Made by a program: the position numbers and the translations under genes | Part shown: one piece after another, positions 3,882 through 30,894 of the stretch | Position numbering within the stretch: the stretch's first letter is position 1 | How the letters are laid out: each line of letters begins with the position of its first letter | The notes under the pieces: model-generated | What the model was told of the DNA's origin: nothing | Seen by the model: the letters and a program-made list of their open reading frames with translations, nothing else | Databases searched by the model: none | NCBI GenBank assembly: GCA_039105265.1 | Contig: JAPFFF010000002.1 | Coordinates: 3,038,001 to 3,102,000 of the forward strand | Origin: Tritrichomonas musculus | Taxonomy: Eukaryota; Parabasalia; Tritrichomonadida; Tritrichomonadidae | Length of the DNA: 64,000 nt | Direction of reading: 5' to 3'

Positions 3882-4037
3882 AAAGTCGGATTCAAAATGC
3901 TTGGGACAACATTCAATTTTTTTCAATGTTTCTCAGAAAAAAAATCATTCAGCTTGGGACAAATTGACCTAAAAGATTTATAAATTTGACCTTATCGTTT
4001 TCAAAAAGTTTGTCCCAAGCCTTTTGAATCCGACTTT
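3882..4037. mobile_element. Short MITE with 30+ bp terminal inverted repeats
   Basis: Both ends read AAAGTCGGATTCAAAA then T or G then GCTTGGGACAA, one as the reverse complement of the other, spanning 156 bases. A third internal copy of GCTTGGGACAAA sits near 3954. The flanks are AATTAT on both sides (3876-3881 and 4038-4043), a plausible 6-bp target duplication. It has no coding capacity. An apparent 62-codon frame across it is an artefact of low-complexity DNA. Confidence 0.7.
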
Positions 4038-4113
4038 AATTATAAAAGAAAATTAAAAGAAAAAAAAAAAAGAAAAGAAATCAAACATTCATAAATTCAT
4101 AAATTTATATATA

Positions 4114-22563: not shown

Positions 22564-24624
22564 TCATTCTGATGAGTAGAACTTTTGAACAAGTGCAATG
22601 AGAGAATAAGTATTATTAAATTGTTGTAAAGGAATTGTGTTATCTGGTTCTGGTATATCTGGGTAAGGTAATTTCCATTCACTTCCATTTACTAAATCTT
22701 CGATCGAATCATTTTGTTGTTCGGAGCCAAAAGAAATTTCATCCTGTTTTTCATCATCTTCGAGTTCAATTGATTGTATTTTATCGTATGACTTTTTCAG
22801 TTTTAGAACTACTGAAGATCTAATTTTATTTTTTTTCTTTAAAAAATTTATATCTTCAATAGGAAACTCAAATTTGAGAGGGAACTTCCTCTGTTCCATT
22901 GAATCAAAAAATGAAACCAAAGCGTCAGATGAATCAATCTTATTACCCGAAAAGTTGATTGATCGAATTAATTTGTTTGACATTAGTAGATCTTGTAAAG
23001 CTTTTAAACCTGGTTCACCAAAATTATTATTTGATACATCTAAAACTTCAATGGAATTATTATTCTGCATCTCTTTTAAGAGAGGAATGATGGAAGTTCG
23101 TAAAACGCCGTATTCATTGCCTGATATGTTTAATTCTTTTAGCGTTGATGTTGATGAAACAAATTGACAAAATTGTTCAATTAATGGTGGATTATCTTGA
23201 CTTAAACTGCCAGCAATTGATAGCTTTTGTAAGCTTGGTAATCGTTTCAAAAATAAAATAAATTGTAATTTAATCGGATTAGATTCGAATCGAAGTTCTG
23301 TTATTTTTGCAAGCTTTTTAGAATATTGAGGTAAAATTTCATTGAAATCTCTCCAAATTTTATCTGTAGGCGTTGCGCCAGAAAAATCGAGTTTTAAATT
23401 AGAATTTGGTTGATGTTGTGAGAAACAAACCCATGCATCAATAAATGTATTTTGTTCCCATTGTATTTGTGAAAAAGTTATAGAATGTAGTGATTTAGGT
23501 ATTGTCATAGCTGTATTAATATTAGAAATAGCTTTGCCACATGTTATTTCTATCGTTTCTAAAACGTTTGTTATGGATATTGAATTTATAATTGTCGATA
23601 TGTCTTCTTGTGAGTTTGATACATCGTCTTCATCATTTAAAATTTTTAAATTTTTCAATCCTTTGAAATTTTTGAATATAAGTTGAGCGTCAACTCCTTG
23701 AAAATTAACTAATGATAAAGTTGTAATCTTACTTAAGTCTCCGACTGAAGCCATTTTGACTAAGAATGATGAATCACAAGCATTCGAAAAAGCAAGGCTA
23801 TGAACTTTTGCATTTGATAAAAAAGTCAATAATATTTGTGCATGTTCATTTTGAAACTGAGTATCGCAAAATTTAACTGCTTCAATCGTATATGTGATTT
23901 CTTCTGCTAGTTTAGAGAAAGAGGAATCAATTCTATCATGAAAAGAAATAAATGATAATTTTGAATTATACTTTAGAATTTTCTCTACAAAACGCCAATT
24001 TGATTTCTTCGGATTTGTTGGAACTGATAATGAAGTTAGAGAAGGCCCAATGGTAATTGAGTCAATAAGTAACTCTGAAAAGTTTGATGCAGAAGGATAT
24101 GATGCGAAATCAATCATTTGATGTTTCGCTAAATCTTCTTCATATCTTTTAATTAGTTTTTTTGGTGGTTTTAAATTTATTTTTGTTGTTAAATATAAAA
24201 ATCTTTGTAATTGAGGAATTTGGGTCGTCTCTGTCTGAACAAGAAAAGAACTGTCAACTTGAATATCGGGAAGTTCATTTTGAAAAAGAAAACTTTTTAA
24301 GTAGTTAATTAATTTGCTAACGATTAAAGATGAATCAGAAGATTGAATTAGATAATTTCCATTTTGATCAAAAACAGTAAAAGATGATTTATCAGACATT
24401 GTTATTTTTTTTAAAAATGGCCATTTGATTTTGCATAGTGCTCGCAGTTTGTATTCATTTTGAATTAAAACATAAAAGTTTGAATCTGTAATTAGTAATA
24501 TCGATGGTTCATTTATATGTTGTCGAATAGTACAATGTATATTTAAGCAAATTAATATTGATTCATCGTTGATAACTTCTAAAACAGTTTTAATTTGCTC
24601 AAGTAGTTTATAATCTATTTCCAT
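22564..24624 (-). CDS. CARMIL-like leucine-rich repeat protein
   Basis: 686 residues. The first ~115 residues look like a PH-type beta domain (LLITDSNFYVLIQ ... SSFTVFDQNGNYLIQSSD). They are followed by a long array of leucine-rich repeats from about 170 to 590, several of ribonuclease-inhibitor type (TLKELNISGNEYGVL, IEVLDVSNNNFGEPGLKAL, IRSINFSGNKIDSSDAL). This PH-then-LRR order is that of CARMIL/LRRC16 proteins, which bind actin capping protein and membranes. The C-terminal tail is short, and a capping-protein-interaction motif was not confirmed, so the actin role is inference. Its start lies 68 bases from the left end of the hAT element at 24692. Confidence 0.75.
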   Translation of the reverse strand: MEIDYKLLEQIKTVLEVINDESILICLNIHCTIRQHINEPSILLITDSNFYVLIQNEYKLRALCKIKWPFLKKITMSDKSSFTVFDQNGNYLIQSSDSSLIVSKLINYLKSFLFQNELPDIQVDSSFLVQTETTQIPQLQRFLYLTTKINLKPPKKLIKRYEEDLAKHQMIDFASYPSASNFSELLIDSITIGPSLTSLSVPTNPKKSNWRFVEKILKYNSKLSFISFHDRIDSSFSKLAEEITYTIEAVKFCDTQFQNEHAQILLTFLSNAKVHSLAFSNACDSSFLVKMASVGDLSKITTLSLVNFQGVDAQLIFKNFKGLKNLKILNDEDDVSNSQEDISTIINSISITNVLETIEITCGKAISNINTAMTIPKSLHSITFSQIQWEQNTFIDAWVCFSQHQPNSNLKLDFSGATPTDKIWRDFNEILPQYSKKLAKITELRFESNPIKLQFILFLKRLPSLQKLSIAGSLSQDNPPLIEQFCQFVSSTSTLKELNISGNEYGVLRTSIIPLLKEMQNNNSIEVLDVSNNNFGEPGLKALQDLLMSNKLIRSINFSGNKIDSSDALVSFFDSMEQRKFPLKFEFPIEDINFLKKKNKIRSSVVLKLKKSYDKIQSIELEDDEKQDEISFGSEQQNDSIEDLVNGSEWKLPYPDIPEPDNTIPLQQFNNTYSLIALVQKFYSSE

Positions 24625-24966
24625 TCTGTTTTGAGAGAAAACTTGTTCATAACGTCTTTGGAATTGAAAGAAAAAAAAATGAAAACATAATTATACCTTG
24701 AAAGAGGTACCCGCATTACCCATTTTTTTCGGGTCATTGCAAAATGGGTCATTCATGACCTGAGGTCATGATTTACCATAGTACCGAAAGGTAGTTCATG
24801 ACCCAATATAATTTTAATAAAAATGTCGATTATTTGATAAATTATTTATAAATAAAGTTTATATAAAATATTATTTTAGTTGTTTATTTATTATTATCTT
24901 TGATTCTGCATTTTCTAATTTCAGTTGAAATTTTTCAGAGTAAAATTCAATGAGCTATCACAATTT

Positions 24967-26829
24967 TTAATTCATATCACAATATTCATTTAAAAAAATG
25001 TTTCTTGCTCTTTCAATATTTGCTTTGACAATACAAAGGGCGCTAAAATGTTCCATTGTCATTGATGACCTTTTATCATCTGCCATATTTGCACATAAAG
25101 AAAAAAATCTTTCACATGCCACAGATGATCCTGCATGAACAAAAAGTGACTTTGCAAATTTTTTCAAATGTTTATGTCCAGTGTGCTCATTCCAGTAATG
25201 GAAAGGATTATCACATCTTCTTTCAAATGGGCGAACTTTTTCAAACCAATGTTTCACTTCATCATCGTAATTTATTTCTTTCGGTTTTCAGTATTTCTTT
25301 TCAACTGGATCCAATTCTTGTGTTTGGTTTTGAATAATTGGTGAATTTGTTGAACTTGTTTTTTGACCAATTTTATTACGAATATAATTCAAAATATCAT
25401 CTAACTGGCAATTTATTTGAGTTGGGATTTCTGTTATGTTTGGGTCCAATATTACTGAAGCTTTGAGATTCTTAGTAAAAATATTATCATTATAAAAAAT
25501 TTCTGAGTTAATTGAATCAATTAAAGAACAGCAATTATCATGCCAGCAGCCATCATTATGTTTTATAGTAAAATTGTATATTTCGTCTTGAATAAAACAT
25601 ATTGTAATAAGCATTTTAGATAGATATATTTCTTTAGATTCCAAGATTTTAAAATTTTCGGTTATTGTTTCAAAAAGTGGAACAATTTCTGATATCATAA
25701 CAAAATCAGATTCCAAAATTTCTTTGTCTGGGTTGGGGACATATCTTTTCAAAATATGCTTATTTTCCCATTTTATTTTTTGAAAGTTCAAAATTGGCTT
25801 TTCAAACCTAGCCAGCTCTTTTATTTCTATTAAATGGGTAGCCCATCTGGTGTCACTTCCAATGGTAAAATTCCTCTTTTTTCCTAAATTTTCATACTCA
25901 TGACCATGATGAAACATGTATTCATTCCAATTGGAATTAGAATGCATTATTGTAGCTATTGCATGAACTTTATGAAGCCTTTCTACAGCTTTATTCCAAA
26001 AATCTTTGATCATCAAATGTAACAAATGAATAATGCATCTATCCCATTCAATATCTAGTAAAATAGATATTTTTTCCATGTCTTTTGCACCATCACTGGC
26101 AACTGAAAGCCATTTTTTCCTCTCTATCTGAAGTTTTTTCATTGTTTGTTTTATCATTTGGCTCATTTCTTCAGAGCCTAAAGTATAATCAGGAGTTTCT
26201 ATCAATTCAACAGGAGTTTCTATCACTGAATTACCTAATGAATATCTTAAAACAACTCCAAGCATACGGACTCCTCGAGGATGACTCCAACCATCACATT
26301 CTATTGTGACTTTTTTGGTATTTGCTATCTCTTCTTTGATATTTTGTTGAACCTTGAGTTTAATATCATTTATCATTGAGAGCACTGTAGGATATGATGG
26401 AAAGTTTGGAAATACTTCTTTTCCATCATTGCTGCATAAAGCAGATAGAGGTACATAATGGTTTATACAAAACAAAAGAATCATATAAATATTTTCTTTT
26501 GTTGAGTGAGGTGTTTCACTAAAACAATTACCTTGATAATGTCTACACAAATTCCCTCCATCACATGATCTAACTCTTAAGCACCTGACACAGAAAAATT
26601 TGGTAATTATAAATTTGTTGTTTTTAAAGCAAAGAATTTTCATAGCATTTTGATACTTTTTACTTTGTACCAGTCCTTGAAAGTTTTTGTCTTCCATTTC
26701 TTTTTTAGAGCAAATGCATAACTTTTCTGTTTTCTTATAAGTGTTTTTATCTTTAATATAAACATATGAATTTGAAAAGAGAAGATCTTCTTCTTGAGCA
26801 GTAGGAAACATTAAAAGTGAAGTTAGCAT
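24967..26829 (-). pseudogene. hAT transposase interrupted by one in-frame TGA
   Basis: One reading frame from ATG at 26829 to the stop at 24967, broken only by TGA at 25288-25290 (complement); both sides stay in frame (513 codons, stop, then about 107 codons). A BED-like zinc-finger segment lies near residues 75-105 (CVRC ... CRHYQGNC). The RNase H-like core shows the first acidic residue in IECDGW, the second block VASDGAKDM, and GSDTRWATH. After the stop comes the hATC dimerisation block SLFVHAGSSVACERFFSLC. The stop separates the core from the dimerisation domain, so product activity would need readthrough or supply in trans. The start codon lies inside the first minisatellite unit. Confidence 0.93.
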
Positions 26830-27374
26830 TTGTATTGAAAAGAATCATCAGTTGTATTGAAAGTGTCAGCATTTGTATTGAAAAGAATCATCAGTTGTAT
26901 TGAAAGTGTCAGCATTCGTATTGAAAGTGTCAGCATTCGTATTGAAAAGAATCATCAGTTGTATTGAAAGTGTCAGCATTCGTATTGAAAAGAATCATCA
27001 GTTGTATTGAAAGTGTCAGCATTCGTATTGAAAGTGTCAGCATTTGTATTGAAAAGAATCATCAGTTGTATTGAAAGTGTCAGCATTTGTATTGAAAAGA
27101 TTCATCAGTTGTATTGAAAGTGTCAGCATTCGTATTGAAAAGAATCATCAGTTGTATTGAAAGTGTCAGCATTTGTATTGAAAAGATTCATCAGTTGTAT
27201 TGAAAGTGTCAGCATTCGTATTGAAAAGAATCATCAGTTGTATTGAAAGTGTCAGCATTCGTATTGAAAAGAATCATCAGTTGTATTGAAAGTGTCAGCA
27301 TTCGTATTGAAAAGAATCATCAGTTGTATTGAAAGTGTCAGCATTTGTATTGAAAAGAATCATCAGTTGTATTG
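26825..27374. repeat. Minisatellite, 43-bp unit x12 plus two 21-bp half units
   Basis: The 43-bp unit contains AGCATTYGTATTGAAAAG, AATCATCAGTTG and TATTGAAAGTGTC. There are 12 copies, the last truncated by 8 bases, and two extra 21-bp forms lacking the AATCATCAG part (near 26911 and 27017). The total is 550 bases. Variants are few (Y at one site; AGAATC or AGATTC), indicating recent homogenisation. 43 is not a multiple of three and all frames stop, so it is non-coding. It fills the space between the two divergent genes of the hAT element. Confidence 0.97.
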
Positions 27375-27413
27375 GTTATTTGAATTTCGAAATCATTTTT
27401 TAAAAATCAATTA

Positions 27414-28202
27414 ATGATCTACAAAGAAGCAACTCTGGATGTATTGGTGCGTCAGCAAATACAACTTAGACCAAATAATTTTGAAACACAGGATTTAAAT
27501 TCATATTTAAAAGAAAACAAAGAGCAAATACTATCTATATGTAATAGGATCATAGAAAATGAAGATTTCAATGATATACATGTTATCGAATATATAAGAA
27601 TACTCATTCAACATCCCGAATATGATTTGTTTACAGAACGTCTTTTTAAAAAAATTGATATTATTTTAGTTATCAATGAATTTTACTTGTTTCTCCAACG
27701 GAACCCCGGCAATTTATTATTAAATAAAATAAGTGTACCTGAACTTAAAAAAAGAAATGATGAAATATCATGGAGCATAATTGCCAGATTAATAGCTATT
27801 AATGAAGTTGATTGTAAAGATGTTTTTGTAAACTTTTTCAATGCAAATCTTTCAAATAGACTGTTTATAGAAATTCTTGAACTAATTCTATCAATTATAT
27901 CTATTATTCGGTGGTTTGATGAGATGACATTAGACTTGATCAGCAAATCAAAAAATATAATTGCTTCATATCATTTTGAGAAAAAAATGCTCATGTATGA
28001 AGTTATTAAAAAAAAAATAATTGCAAATCTTTCAGTATTATTCTTACTGATATTTGATGAAGACCTTCTTTCATCTTTAGGTGATATTAATTTTTGTTGT
28101 TCAATTATTCATCAAATCAGAAAACATTTTCCAAATGATAAAGAATTTGAAAAATACTTTGATATGGATAAATTTAATAATAGTATAAATCCCGATCAAT
28201 GA
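27414..28202 (+). CDS. Passenger gene inside hAT element, 262 aa, unknown
   Basis: Not recognised. A 262-residue, Ile/Leu/Asn/Phe-rich helical protein (DLNSYLKENKEQILSIC ... DIHVIEYIRILIQHPEYDLF), possibly armadillo- or HEAT-like. It begins 39 bases after the minisatellite and is transcribed away from the transposase. It lies wholly between the terminal repeats and so moves with the element. It could be an accessory transposition protein or a captured host gene. It has no stop codons or frameshifts, unlike the transposase. Confidence 0.72.
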   Translation: MIYKEATLDVLVRQQIQLRPNNFETQDLNSYLKENKEQILSICNRIIENEDFNDIHVIEYIRILIQHPEYDLFTERLFKKIDIILVINEFYLFLQRNPGNLLLNKISVPELKKRNDEISWSIIARLIAINEVDCKDVFVNFFNANLSNRLFIEILELILSIISIIRWFDEMTLDLISKSKNIIASYHFEKKMLMYEVIKKKIIANLSVLFLLIFDEDLLSSLGDINFCCSIIHQIRKHFPNDKEFEKYFDMDKFNNSINPDQ

Positions 28203-28289
28203 TCTTCGAGTCAGATATCAAATTAATAAAAATTTAATATCTTTTTTTTTATTTGTAGTTTTATTATAATAATAATGAAAAGGAATGTT

Positions 28290-28480
28290 TGTATTTTGTT
28301 TTATAATAAGCATTCTTGATGAATATTGTATTAAAAATGGAGATTCTTATATTAAAATTTGGAATCTGTAAAAACGTTTAGCGAAATGAATGATGAACAA
28401 TTGAAAGAAAAAAGGAACGCATGTATTTTATTTTGCAATAAGCATTCTTGATGAATATTGTATTAAAAATAGCGATTCAA
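28290..28480. repeat. Direct repeat pair inside hAT right arm
   Basis: The block ATAAGCATTCTTGATGAATA followed by TTGTATTAAAAAT occurs at about 28305 and again at about 28437, with matching flanking TGTATTTT. Unit offset is about 132 bases. Possibly a subterminal duplication within the transposon. Confidence 0.7.
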
Positions 28481-28772
28481 AAAAATATTTTCTAAAAATT
28501 TTATGATACATATTATATTTTATTTCACAAGTCAAATAGTCAAAATATTGTTATTATTATTATTATTATTTTTATTAAAAAATCAAGTTTTAATGTTATA
28601 ACATTAATATTTAAGGAGGGAGCCAAATTTTTTCAAAAAAAAAAAAAAAAAAAAATAAGAAAAAAATGGGTAAAACATAAACCCTTCACTTTTTTTTTGG
28701 GTATTACCCGACCCAAAAAATCACGGGTAGGGTCAATTTTTTCGGGTTACCTTTCGAAGGTATAAACATAAT

Positions 28773-29213
28773 GTAACATTGAGATACCTTTGTTTATGTT
28801 AATTTATCAACAATCATATTATGTATGTCAGATAGTCCCATTTTACTTTTTCTAATCCAAATGGGATTAAAATCTGGGATTTATGGGATTTTGTTATTAT
28901 AACCATATTATAATTTAAGTTTTTAATATAACCATATTATACAGAATATCTTAATAAATAAAGGTGTGAACTTAAAAGGTCAACAAATGTTCAACTGAAA
29001 TCTACTCAAATTTTTGAATCAAATACGATCATGAAAGGTCAAATAATTGCCTTTTTAGTAAATGATCTAAATCCCAAAAAGAATTAAAATTATTCCCATT
29101 TTCAAATTTTAATCCCAATGTGTCATCCTTAATAATATGAATTAATAAGTTTTTTCTTAATTTTTTCTTTTCTTTTGACAGATTATGATGATTTTAAAAA
29201 AGCTAACTTTTTT
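28773..29213. other. Gene-free AT-rich stretch with weak inverted repeat
   Basis: Between the hAT end and the fragment below. ATGGGATTAAAAT near 28860 faces ATTTTAATCCCAATG near 29103, and other GGGATT/AATCCC words recur, suggesting a decayed MITE. Edges could not be fixed. Confidence 0.35.
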
Positions 29214-29234
29214 GCTAGCCCTTCGGCGGTTAGC
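29214..29234 (+). other. Hairpin with cUUCGg tetraloop
   Basis: GCTAGCC and GGTTAGC pair around CTTCGG, forming a short stem with a UUCG loop closed by C-G and one bulged base. It sits in otherwise AT-rich DNA 17 bases before the gene fragment at 29251. Could be part of a structured RNA or a terminator; no neighbouring gene explains it. Confidence 0.4.
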
Positions 29235-29250
29235 TTACATCCATATATAG

Positions 29251-29463
29251 TTCACTATTGCGGAAGATTACCTCAAAAGAGGAAAAAGAATTAGAGTTCC
29301 AAACTACGCATTTAAACACGCTCGTAACGTTGCTACCGCTAGTCCAATGTCTTTTTTCGGAATAACCCAAAATGATGATGCTGATGAAACCGATGATGAA
29401 TCCGAATCTGAAAATGAAACCAATGATTTATCATTTTTAATGTCGAAATTATCCATTATGTAA
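29251..29463 (+). pseudogene. 3' gene fragment with acidic tail
   Basis: An open stretch of 70 codons without an ATG start, preceded by TAG. It reads FTIAEDYLKRGKRIRVPNY... and ends in an Asp/Glu/Ser-rich tail (DDADETDDESESENET) and LMSKLSIM before TAA. Base composition is richer in GC than its surroundings. It looks like the last part of a coding gene cut off at its 5' side; the parent family is not recognised. Confidence 0.5.
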
Positions 29464-29884
29464 TTTTTGCTTGCTATTACTTATTTTTGTGTTTTCTTTT
29501 TCACCTTTTATCTTCATGAAAGTAGTAATGTTAAGGAGGGCTACGTGTCTTAGGCCCATACGCCCATCCTTAACGCTTCTGGAGCTCCAAACGACTTTGA
29601 ATTTCCTAAAAAACCACGTCCATTTCATGAATTCTGAGGGTGAAATCATTTGTTGATTTTTTTCTTTGAGCTCATAAATATTGAATTTCATGAATTTTAA
29701 GGGTACAACACATTTATAAAATTTTCATTATATATAAATTCTCTAATGAAATACTAATAATTTATCCCTACCATCCAGAAGCTTAATACACCTGCCACAG
29801 TCACGCTACTTGCCAATACTGGATAAAGTAGACTATAATAATATGTATTTTTAGTGCTAATTGTGGCAAAAACCTAATGATATA

Positions 29885-30894
29885 TAGTCCTATCAAAAAG
29901 TGGCCACGCTCTCTTTTAAGTGGCCACGGTGATTTGACACCTATATTTCATTAAATTCAAAGGGGGTAAATTGGCATACTCACAATTTAAAAAAATTCAG
30001 AAGAATATTTTTTTATTTTTTAGTGGCGATCATGCAAATGTCAGATTATCAAAATCTCATTTAAAATCAAATGGTTTAATATGGCATACTCTCAATTTTC
30101 CACTTTTTCTTTAAAAAACTAAAAAATAAACGAACTTTTATTTAATACTGTCAAAAAAATGAATTATCATTCAAATACAAGTGGTGCAAAACGACATTTA
30201 TAAAAAAATTATGACCACGGTTAAATAAAAAAAAAAAAAACCCCAATAGAAATTCAATGATTCTATTGATTTTAGGTCAATAAATTTGATCAAAAAAAAA
30301 AAAAAAAAAAAAAAACACGACCATTTTTTCAAATCATTATCACTTTAATTTAAGATCAACAATAGACAACAAACAAATAAGCAGCAACAGCGCTTATACA
30401 TTCACTTTTATCTTATGCTCTTCGACACTCATGAGATGCTACGAGAATCATAATGCTTCACTTGTAAACAACAAACAAACAAACAAACAACAACTAAACA
30501 CAAACAAATAAACAATAACAACACGTATACATTCACTTTTATCTTACGTTCTTCGACACTCATGAGATGCTACGAGAATCATAATGATTCACTTGTAAAC
30601 AACAAACAAACAAATAAACAATAACAACACGTATACATTCACTTTTATCTTTCATTTATTCTTTTTCATTTTTTCTTTTTTTTTTAATATTTTATCTATT
30701 AATTTATTGAAATCACCTTTATTAATAAGCCTTTATAATTTTCTTATTCTGCTTTTTACTATTTTTTTGTAAAAAGTCTTATTATTTATATGAAAAAATT
30801 TTTCTAATACATAAGATTATATTTTTTAACTTTTTGAATTAATCTGACACCGTGGCAACTAAATTGAGAGGGTGGCCACTTTTAGACAGGACTA
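29885..30894. mobile_element. Non-autonomous element with 50-bp TIRs and TA target duplication
   Basis: Left end TAGTCCTATCAAAAAGTGGC; right end, reverse complemented, TAGTCCTGTCTAAAAGTGGC. Similarity runs about 50 bases (CTCTC, GCCACGGTG). TA flanks both sides (29883-29884, 30895-30896), as in the Tc1/mariner superfamily. Its 1010 bases have no open frame; inside is a 131-bp tandem repeat. The TAGTCCT terminus is shared with the element at 57624-60012. Confidence 0.85.
30363..30652. repeat. 131-bp tandem repeat, about 2.3 copies
   Basis: Block with TACATTCACTTTTATCTTA, CTCTTCGACACTCATGAGATG, CTACGAGAATCATAATG and CACTTGTAAACAAC, followed by AACAAACAAA runs. Full copies start at about 30363 and 30494, with a partial third to 30652. 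Lies inside the TA-flanked element. Confidence 0.85.

Follow-up and report, generated by a model that had tools for sequence, protein, structure and literature searches.

A two-gene hAT transposon of Tritrichomonas musculus whose orphan second gene appears to be resident in the element lineage

A stretch of 64,000 nucleotides of Tritrichomonas musculus (assembly GCA_039105265.1, contig JAPFFF010000002.1, positions 3,038,001 to 3,102,000; the window, to which positions below refer) contains a complete 4073-bp transposon of the hAT superfamily at 24692–28764. It raises the question of why a hAT should carry, besides its transposase gene, an intact gene of 262 codons on the opposite strand, and what the tandem array lying between these two divergent genes does. 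This anatomy had been proposed from the letters of the window alone (hereafter, the sequence-only reading), and it is borne out, the ends and the exact 8-bp duplication having exactly the coordinates then given. With a probability of roughly three in four, this is a cut-and-paste hAT with two resident divergent genes, whose second protein joined the lineage before the subfamilies diverged.

The element resembles other members of the superfamily (Hermes, Ac, hobo) in its 8-bp duplication, its short inverted ends, and the C-terminal dimerisation region of its transposase. The terminal inverted repeats (TATACCTT/AAGGTATA) are those of a hAT, with identity exact over 8 bases only. A C-terminal piece of the window transposase matches the Pfam family Dimer_Tnp_hAT (E = 2.3e-7), and PF05699 is above its cut-off in this piece and in the transposases P0002, P0003, and P0004. 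P0002 is the open 620-amino-acid frame of another copy (C51, see following), whereas P0003 (60% identity) and P0004 (59% in the search listing, 61% in the alignment) are relatives found in public data; the NCBI entry for the transposase of this element is Tritrichomonas musculus M9Y10_031873. A profile match of the transposase to that of Hermes has E = 0.0012; its C-terminal match covers the ER(F/T)FSL stretch, and the N-terminal one is nonsignificant (0.4 bits). Aspartates in conserved columns of the transposase alignment are candidates for those of the catalytic D, D, E set. An N-terminal BED zinc finger is common in the superfamily, though not universal; no BED model is reported at E 0.1 for P0002–P0004, although on inspection by eye a C-x2-C ... 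H ... C pattern can be made out.

Among independent insertions of this subfamily and its relatives with both sides readable, 11 of 12 have an exact 8-bp duplication (window, C36, C67, C1:6.81M, C4:4.55M, C14:1.09M, C34, C28, C18:1.65M, C1:4.36M, and C9), and in the twelfth (C12) the duplication is shifted by one base. A chance origin of the ends and duplication in the window is thus excluded. This count leaves out C487, whose flanks are those of C36 (2226/2226 bases on the left, 2286/2286 on the right), C207, which is the same as C18 at 3138/3138 bases, C18:0.62M, the left end of which was not found in its locus, and the one-sided places (C51, C14:2.07M, C42, C61, and others). As the cases of C487 and C207 show, some small contigs of GCA_039105265.1 are exact duplicates of parts of larger contigs, which inflates raw copy counts.

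The distribution of the second gene carries the main finding. A search of the whole genome (193 Mb in 746 contigs) with the second protein gives 10 matches, with all 22 candidates scored, and every one of them lies inside a hAT copy. Three belong to the same subfamily, namely the window and two copies in which the gene is cut (C51 and C14), and seven to a different one, subfamily B, at 39–45% identity. Elements of subfamily B begin with TAGACCTT and end with AAGGTTTA. The B left end is found at all seven places, and paired 8-bp duplications at all four of the seven that have both flanks readable (C67, C1:6.81M, C4:4.55M, and C14:1.09M); a whole-element search detected right ends near C42 and C61, and none was seen near C51:161895. 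Fourteen B places are 98–100% identical to the 2836-bp C67 element where matched, apart from one short piece at 94%. Neither transposase piece has a match in the C67 element or at the C42 place. A third group, subfamily C, consists of elements of 988–989 bp that have their ends in common with the others. From these sequence matches, the second gene is seen to be a resident of the element lineage within this genome. As in an accessory factor of a two-gene transposon, conservation follows the elements and not the host, on the evidence of the ten genomic matches and, more tentatively, of the full-length relative P0006 described below. The B copy at C42:327189–336900 itself contains an insertion of about 6 kb that holds 122/123-bp tandem arrays rich in GCAGGTGGAA.

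Relatives of the second protein were sought among 5.8 billion proteins, with hits accepted up to E 10. The single sequence finds one, P0001, which is full-length and identical at 257 of 262 residues. A four-sequence profile, for which scoring covered the 7991 candidates with the most words in common, adds at least four (P0005, P0006, P0007, and P0008), none of them named. P0005, P0007, and P0008 are fragments resembling subfamily B. P0006 is a full-length protein of 258 amino acids, 41% identical in the alignment, with the MIYK start in common. Because its matches in this genome are only the already known places, the best at 43%, P0006 represents a third lineage, from elsewhere. The frame stays open and collinear over the P0006 divergence, and the comparisons with the B remnants point the same way, both in their codon-position differences and in a nonsynonymous divergence (dN) below the synonymous one (dS); this supports past selection on the second gene without proving it. 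AlphaFold models made from two and three sequences are poor (mean predicted local distance difference test, pLDDT, of 48 and 65) and consist of helices throughout. The protein is probably all-helical, and it is fast-evolving. Plasmid records give no match, and viral contigs searched with alignments of the second gene and of the transposase contain no relative.

The closest copies show how recently the window element came to its present state. The whole-element search of the genome, in which 40 of 107 candidates were scored so that copy counts are lower bounds, identifies at least two other long copies of the subfamily. The C51 copy has the left end, an open transposase frame, and the beginning of the second gene, followed by other DNA from element position ~2870. 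The C14 copy has the left end minus its first two bases, another insertion at ~694, and a break at ~2853. Over 2035 aligned bases, the window copy has 8 differences from C51. Its alignment with C14 falls into two segments, one with 4 substitutions and a 21-bp deletion, the other with 2 substitutions. Judged by their sequences, these copies form a young group damaged at different places. The sequence-only reading had seen in an intact passenger beside a broken transposase either selection on the passenger or very recent decay. Very recent decay is supported by the few differences from C51, in which the frame is open. Selection cannot be read from the window copy, as the second gene is precisely the part that is cut in both other long copies, and this inference was rejected. 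Having gained a stop, the window copy would now depend for any movement on transposase supplied by another source. The same reading had held that copies lacking the second gene or the array would count against it. Such copies do exist, an example being the 489-bp C36 derivative (element positions 1–325 and 3936–4073, duplication ATGACAAA), but these shorter elements also lack the transposase and hence are ordinary deletion derivatives.

Three further observations concern these copies. The C51 and C14 copies break within ~20 bp of each other (element positions 2853–2870), inside the second gene and into different DNA, either by chance or at a fragile site. The C51 copy (C51:612500–622000) is longer by ~60 bases near element position 100, and this added sequence is similar to the right end of subfamily C, as though copied in from a foreign end. 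The C14 copy is split by a stretch of 7.4 kb (about C14:2068370–2075812), the borders of which, by eye, are inverted repeats starting CCCGTATTGTACACAATCC beside TA, suggesting a Tc1/mariner-like insertion.

The array of 43-bp repeats was found where the sequence-only reading had placed it and can be resolved further. Each 43-bp unit divides into two half-units, A of 22 bp and B of 21 bp, both starting with GTATTGAAA, which vary at one site per kind, with one variant of each (a and b). The 25 half-units of the window read ABAbbAbAbBABabABabAbAbABA, and those of C51 and C14 both read ABABABA. Because C51 and C14 agree and lie at different places, seven half-units is probably the older state. This comparison of lengths supports the earlier suggestion of a slippage product. 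Growth of the window array after the copies had separated is likewise well supported, short blocks having probably been duplicated again and again. A minisatellite has thus grown inside a transposon while the surrounding sequence diverged by about half a percent. The array length and the broken transposase are both recent and ordinary, and the interesting part of the element is the orphan second gene.

Between the likely starts of the two genes there are 602 bp, of which the array fills 550, so that any shared promoter must lie in the array or at its edges. For this reason the array-bearing stretch, kept in 3/3 long copies, rather probably holds both promoters. It is more doubtful, and on balance somewhat improbable, that the array itself is a working part, i.e., a bidirectional promoter or enhancer common to both genes, the activity of which would be set by the number of repeats. 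Promoter words of T. vaginalis, taken in part from PMC7370421, were used for comparison. One word resembling the T. vaginalis initiator, TCAYTW, lies just upstream of both element genes (9 and 21 bases), against a background of 6.5% of ATGs; however, in the window it precedes only 2 of 20 host genes, near that background, and hence it does not place promoters here. On the strand of the transposase, every half-unit has TTTCAATAC. Regions upstream of host genes are somewhat enriched in TTCAA (present in 14 of 19, with 7.1 expected), a weak excess that comes from a scan of many words. The change from 7 to 25 half-units between near-identical copies also fits slippage without function.

For the second gene itself, one has to consider that it may be cargo, a host gene picked up once by the ancestor of the elements and playing no role in transposition. 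The lack of a known domain is compatible with this, as is the movement of deletion derivatives that have lost the gene, and in subfamily B it is truncated at 7/7 places and split between frames at 6/7. Yet no host source is found, all ten matches in the 193-Mb genome being in hAT copies, and the ordinary host gene that the sequence-only reading had named as the contrary outcome does not appear among them; none of the protein relatives found up to E 10, by single sequence or by profile, is named either. The capture would also have to predate the split of the two subfamilies, now at 42–43% identity, and the full-length frame survives in the P0006 lineage. Such an origin is therefore unlikely. 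Capture of a host gene by the window copy alone was rejected.

Several observations nonetheless weigh against long residence of a second gene with a function in the element. Its linkage to a transposase is known from this genome alone, and not from P0003, P0004, or P0006. The gene is whole in none of the seven subfamily-B relatives, whose remnants preserve no more than the C-terminal region (starting at residue ~107 in C42 and at ~130 in the rest). In the window the second gene is intact and the transposase stopped, in C51 the reverse holds, and no locus examined has both intact. The second gene is not needed in cis for movement, as deletion derivatives moved without it. The divergence of the window gene from the C67 remnant (differences at the three codon positions 66/34/68; dN 0.47, dS 1.54) and from the C42 remnant (57/37/72; dN 0.52, dS 1.09) was taken from a protein-guided codon alignment and has dS near saturation, and in C67 first positions differ as often as third ones. 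Pfam has no family above cut-off in the second protein, a PDB sequence search with it gives E 0.16 at best, and Foldseek with the better model gives no match at E ≤ 0.001 (best 0.56), for which reason no fold is drawn for it.

Tandem repeats bind transposases in some transposons, but that this array is a transposase-binding or replication site required for movement, a role that the sequence-only reading had allowed, is highly improbable and was rejected, because among 61 loci examined array matches are confined to three copies (window, C51, and C14), whereas the C36 derivative (with its own duplication) and the examined B and C elements moved without an array, which is therefore dispensable in cis for transposition. 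It is at the ends that GGGT/ACCC words are concentrated (13 of the 17 in the element sit within 150 bp of them), and by their position they are better candidates than the array for transposase binding.

Under the favoured reading of a hAT with two resident genes, transposase from an intact copy would bind the GGGT-rich ends, and the elements have moved by cut and paste, as the 8-bp duplications that they left show. The window copy would have inserted recently, with the transposase stop arising afterwards, and through slippage or unequal exchange its array would have lengthened from ~7 half-units to 25. The second protein would be made from the strand opposite to the transposase. Its most likely task would be to help or regulate the transposase, a role to which we give about even odds and which is proposed because the protein persists with the lineage and because other two-gene transposons exist.

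Classical hATs such as Hermes, Ac, and hobo encode a transposase alone, and hATs are usually single-gene cut-and-paste elements; here there is in addition a second gene on the opposite strand and an array between the genes. In other superfamilies, MuDR and Harbinger combine the transposase gene with a second one that acts as a helper. Tentatively, and with the odds somewhat against it, one may see in this element a branch of parabasalid hATs that have a second gene as a permanent part, its product being an orphan helical accessory protein which different species have retained and which is expressed divergently from a promoter common to both genes, as a hAT counterpart of MuDR, Harbinger, and Kolobok. 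Two-gene hATs are already in print: according to PMC12730594, fungal hAT7 families likewise carry a second, nontransposase gene, coding for a TET/JBP dioxygenase. These have 7-bp duplications and a known enzyme, whereas the present element, with 8-bp duplications and an orphan protein in which no Pfam family is above cut-off, falls outside that group. What is new here is that an orphan second gene is resident in the lineage. Several accessory proteins occur among Kolobok lineages (PMC9587614), and in KolobokP transposase and accessory protein are likewise on opposite strands; unlike here, the duplications are TTAA, the second gene lies downstream of the transposase, and its product is a His-Me finger nuclease. 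Open-licence titles name neither a second gene in any hAT of Tritrichomonas or Trichomonas nor a central array in any hAT, Repbase being outside this scope and an earlier description possible. If the favoured reading is true, a hAT lineage with a long-persisting second protein is a natural system for finding what helps or controls a hAT transposase, and the open transposase frame of C51, together with the window copy (both ends and an intact second gene), makes the helper question testable.

Coordinates of the features of the element in the window
Feature	Position	Strand	Basis or remark
Left target-site duplication AACATAAT	24684..24691	.	sequence
Left terminal inverted repeat	24692..24715	+	starts TATACCTT; 8 exact bases, imperfect further in
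Left subterminal region, clustered GGGT/ACCC words	24692..24841	.	candidate transposase-binding region
hAT transposase gene	24967..26811	-	start aligning with P0003; longest frame begins 26829; one in-frame stop
In-frame stop codon	25288..25290	-	window copy only; absent from C51 and C14 copies
Array, 25 half-units (43-bp unit x 12.8)	26825..27374	.	tandem-repeat detection and unit reading
Second gene, intact, 262 codons, no known domain	27414..28202	+	frame and domain searches
Right subterminal region, clustered GGGT/ACCC words	28615..28764	.	
Right terminal inverted repeat	28741..28764	-	AAGGTATA ending at 28764
Right target-site duplication AACATAAT	28765..28772	.	sequence; exact 8-bp match to left

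Next to the element is a leucine-rich-repeat gene of 686 codons (22564–24624, reverse strand), whose ATG has the element 67 bp upstream of it, and at this short distance the insertion may have altered or displaced the promoter of that gene. On the other side, the right flank (28765–29764) includes stretches that are widespread in the genome, with at least 42 matches (40 of 98 candidates scored), and further on, at 30357–30625, there is a tandem duplication of 2.1 copies of a 131-bp unit.

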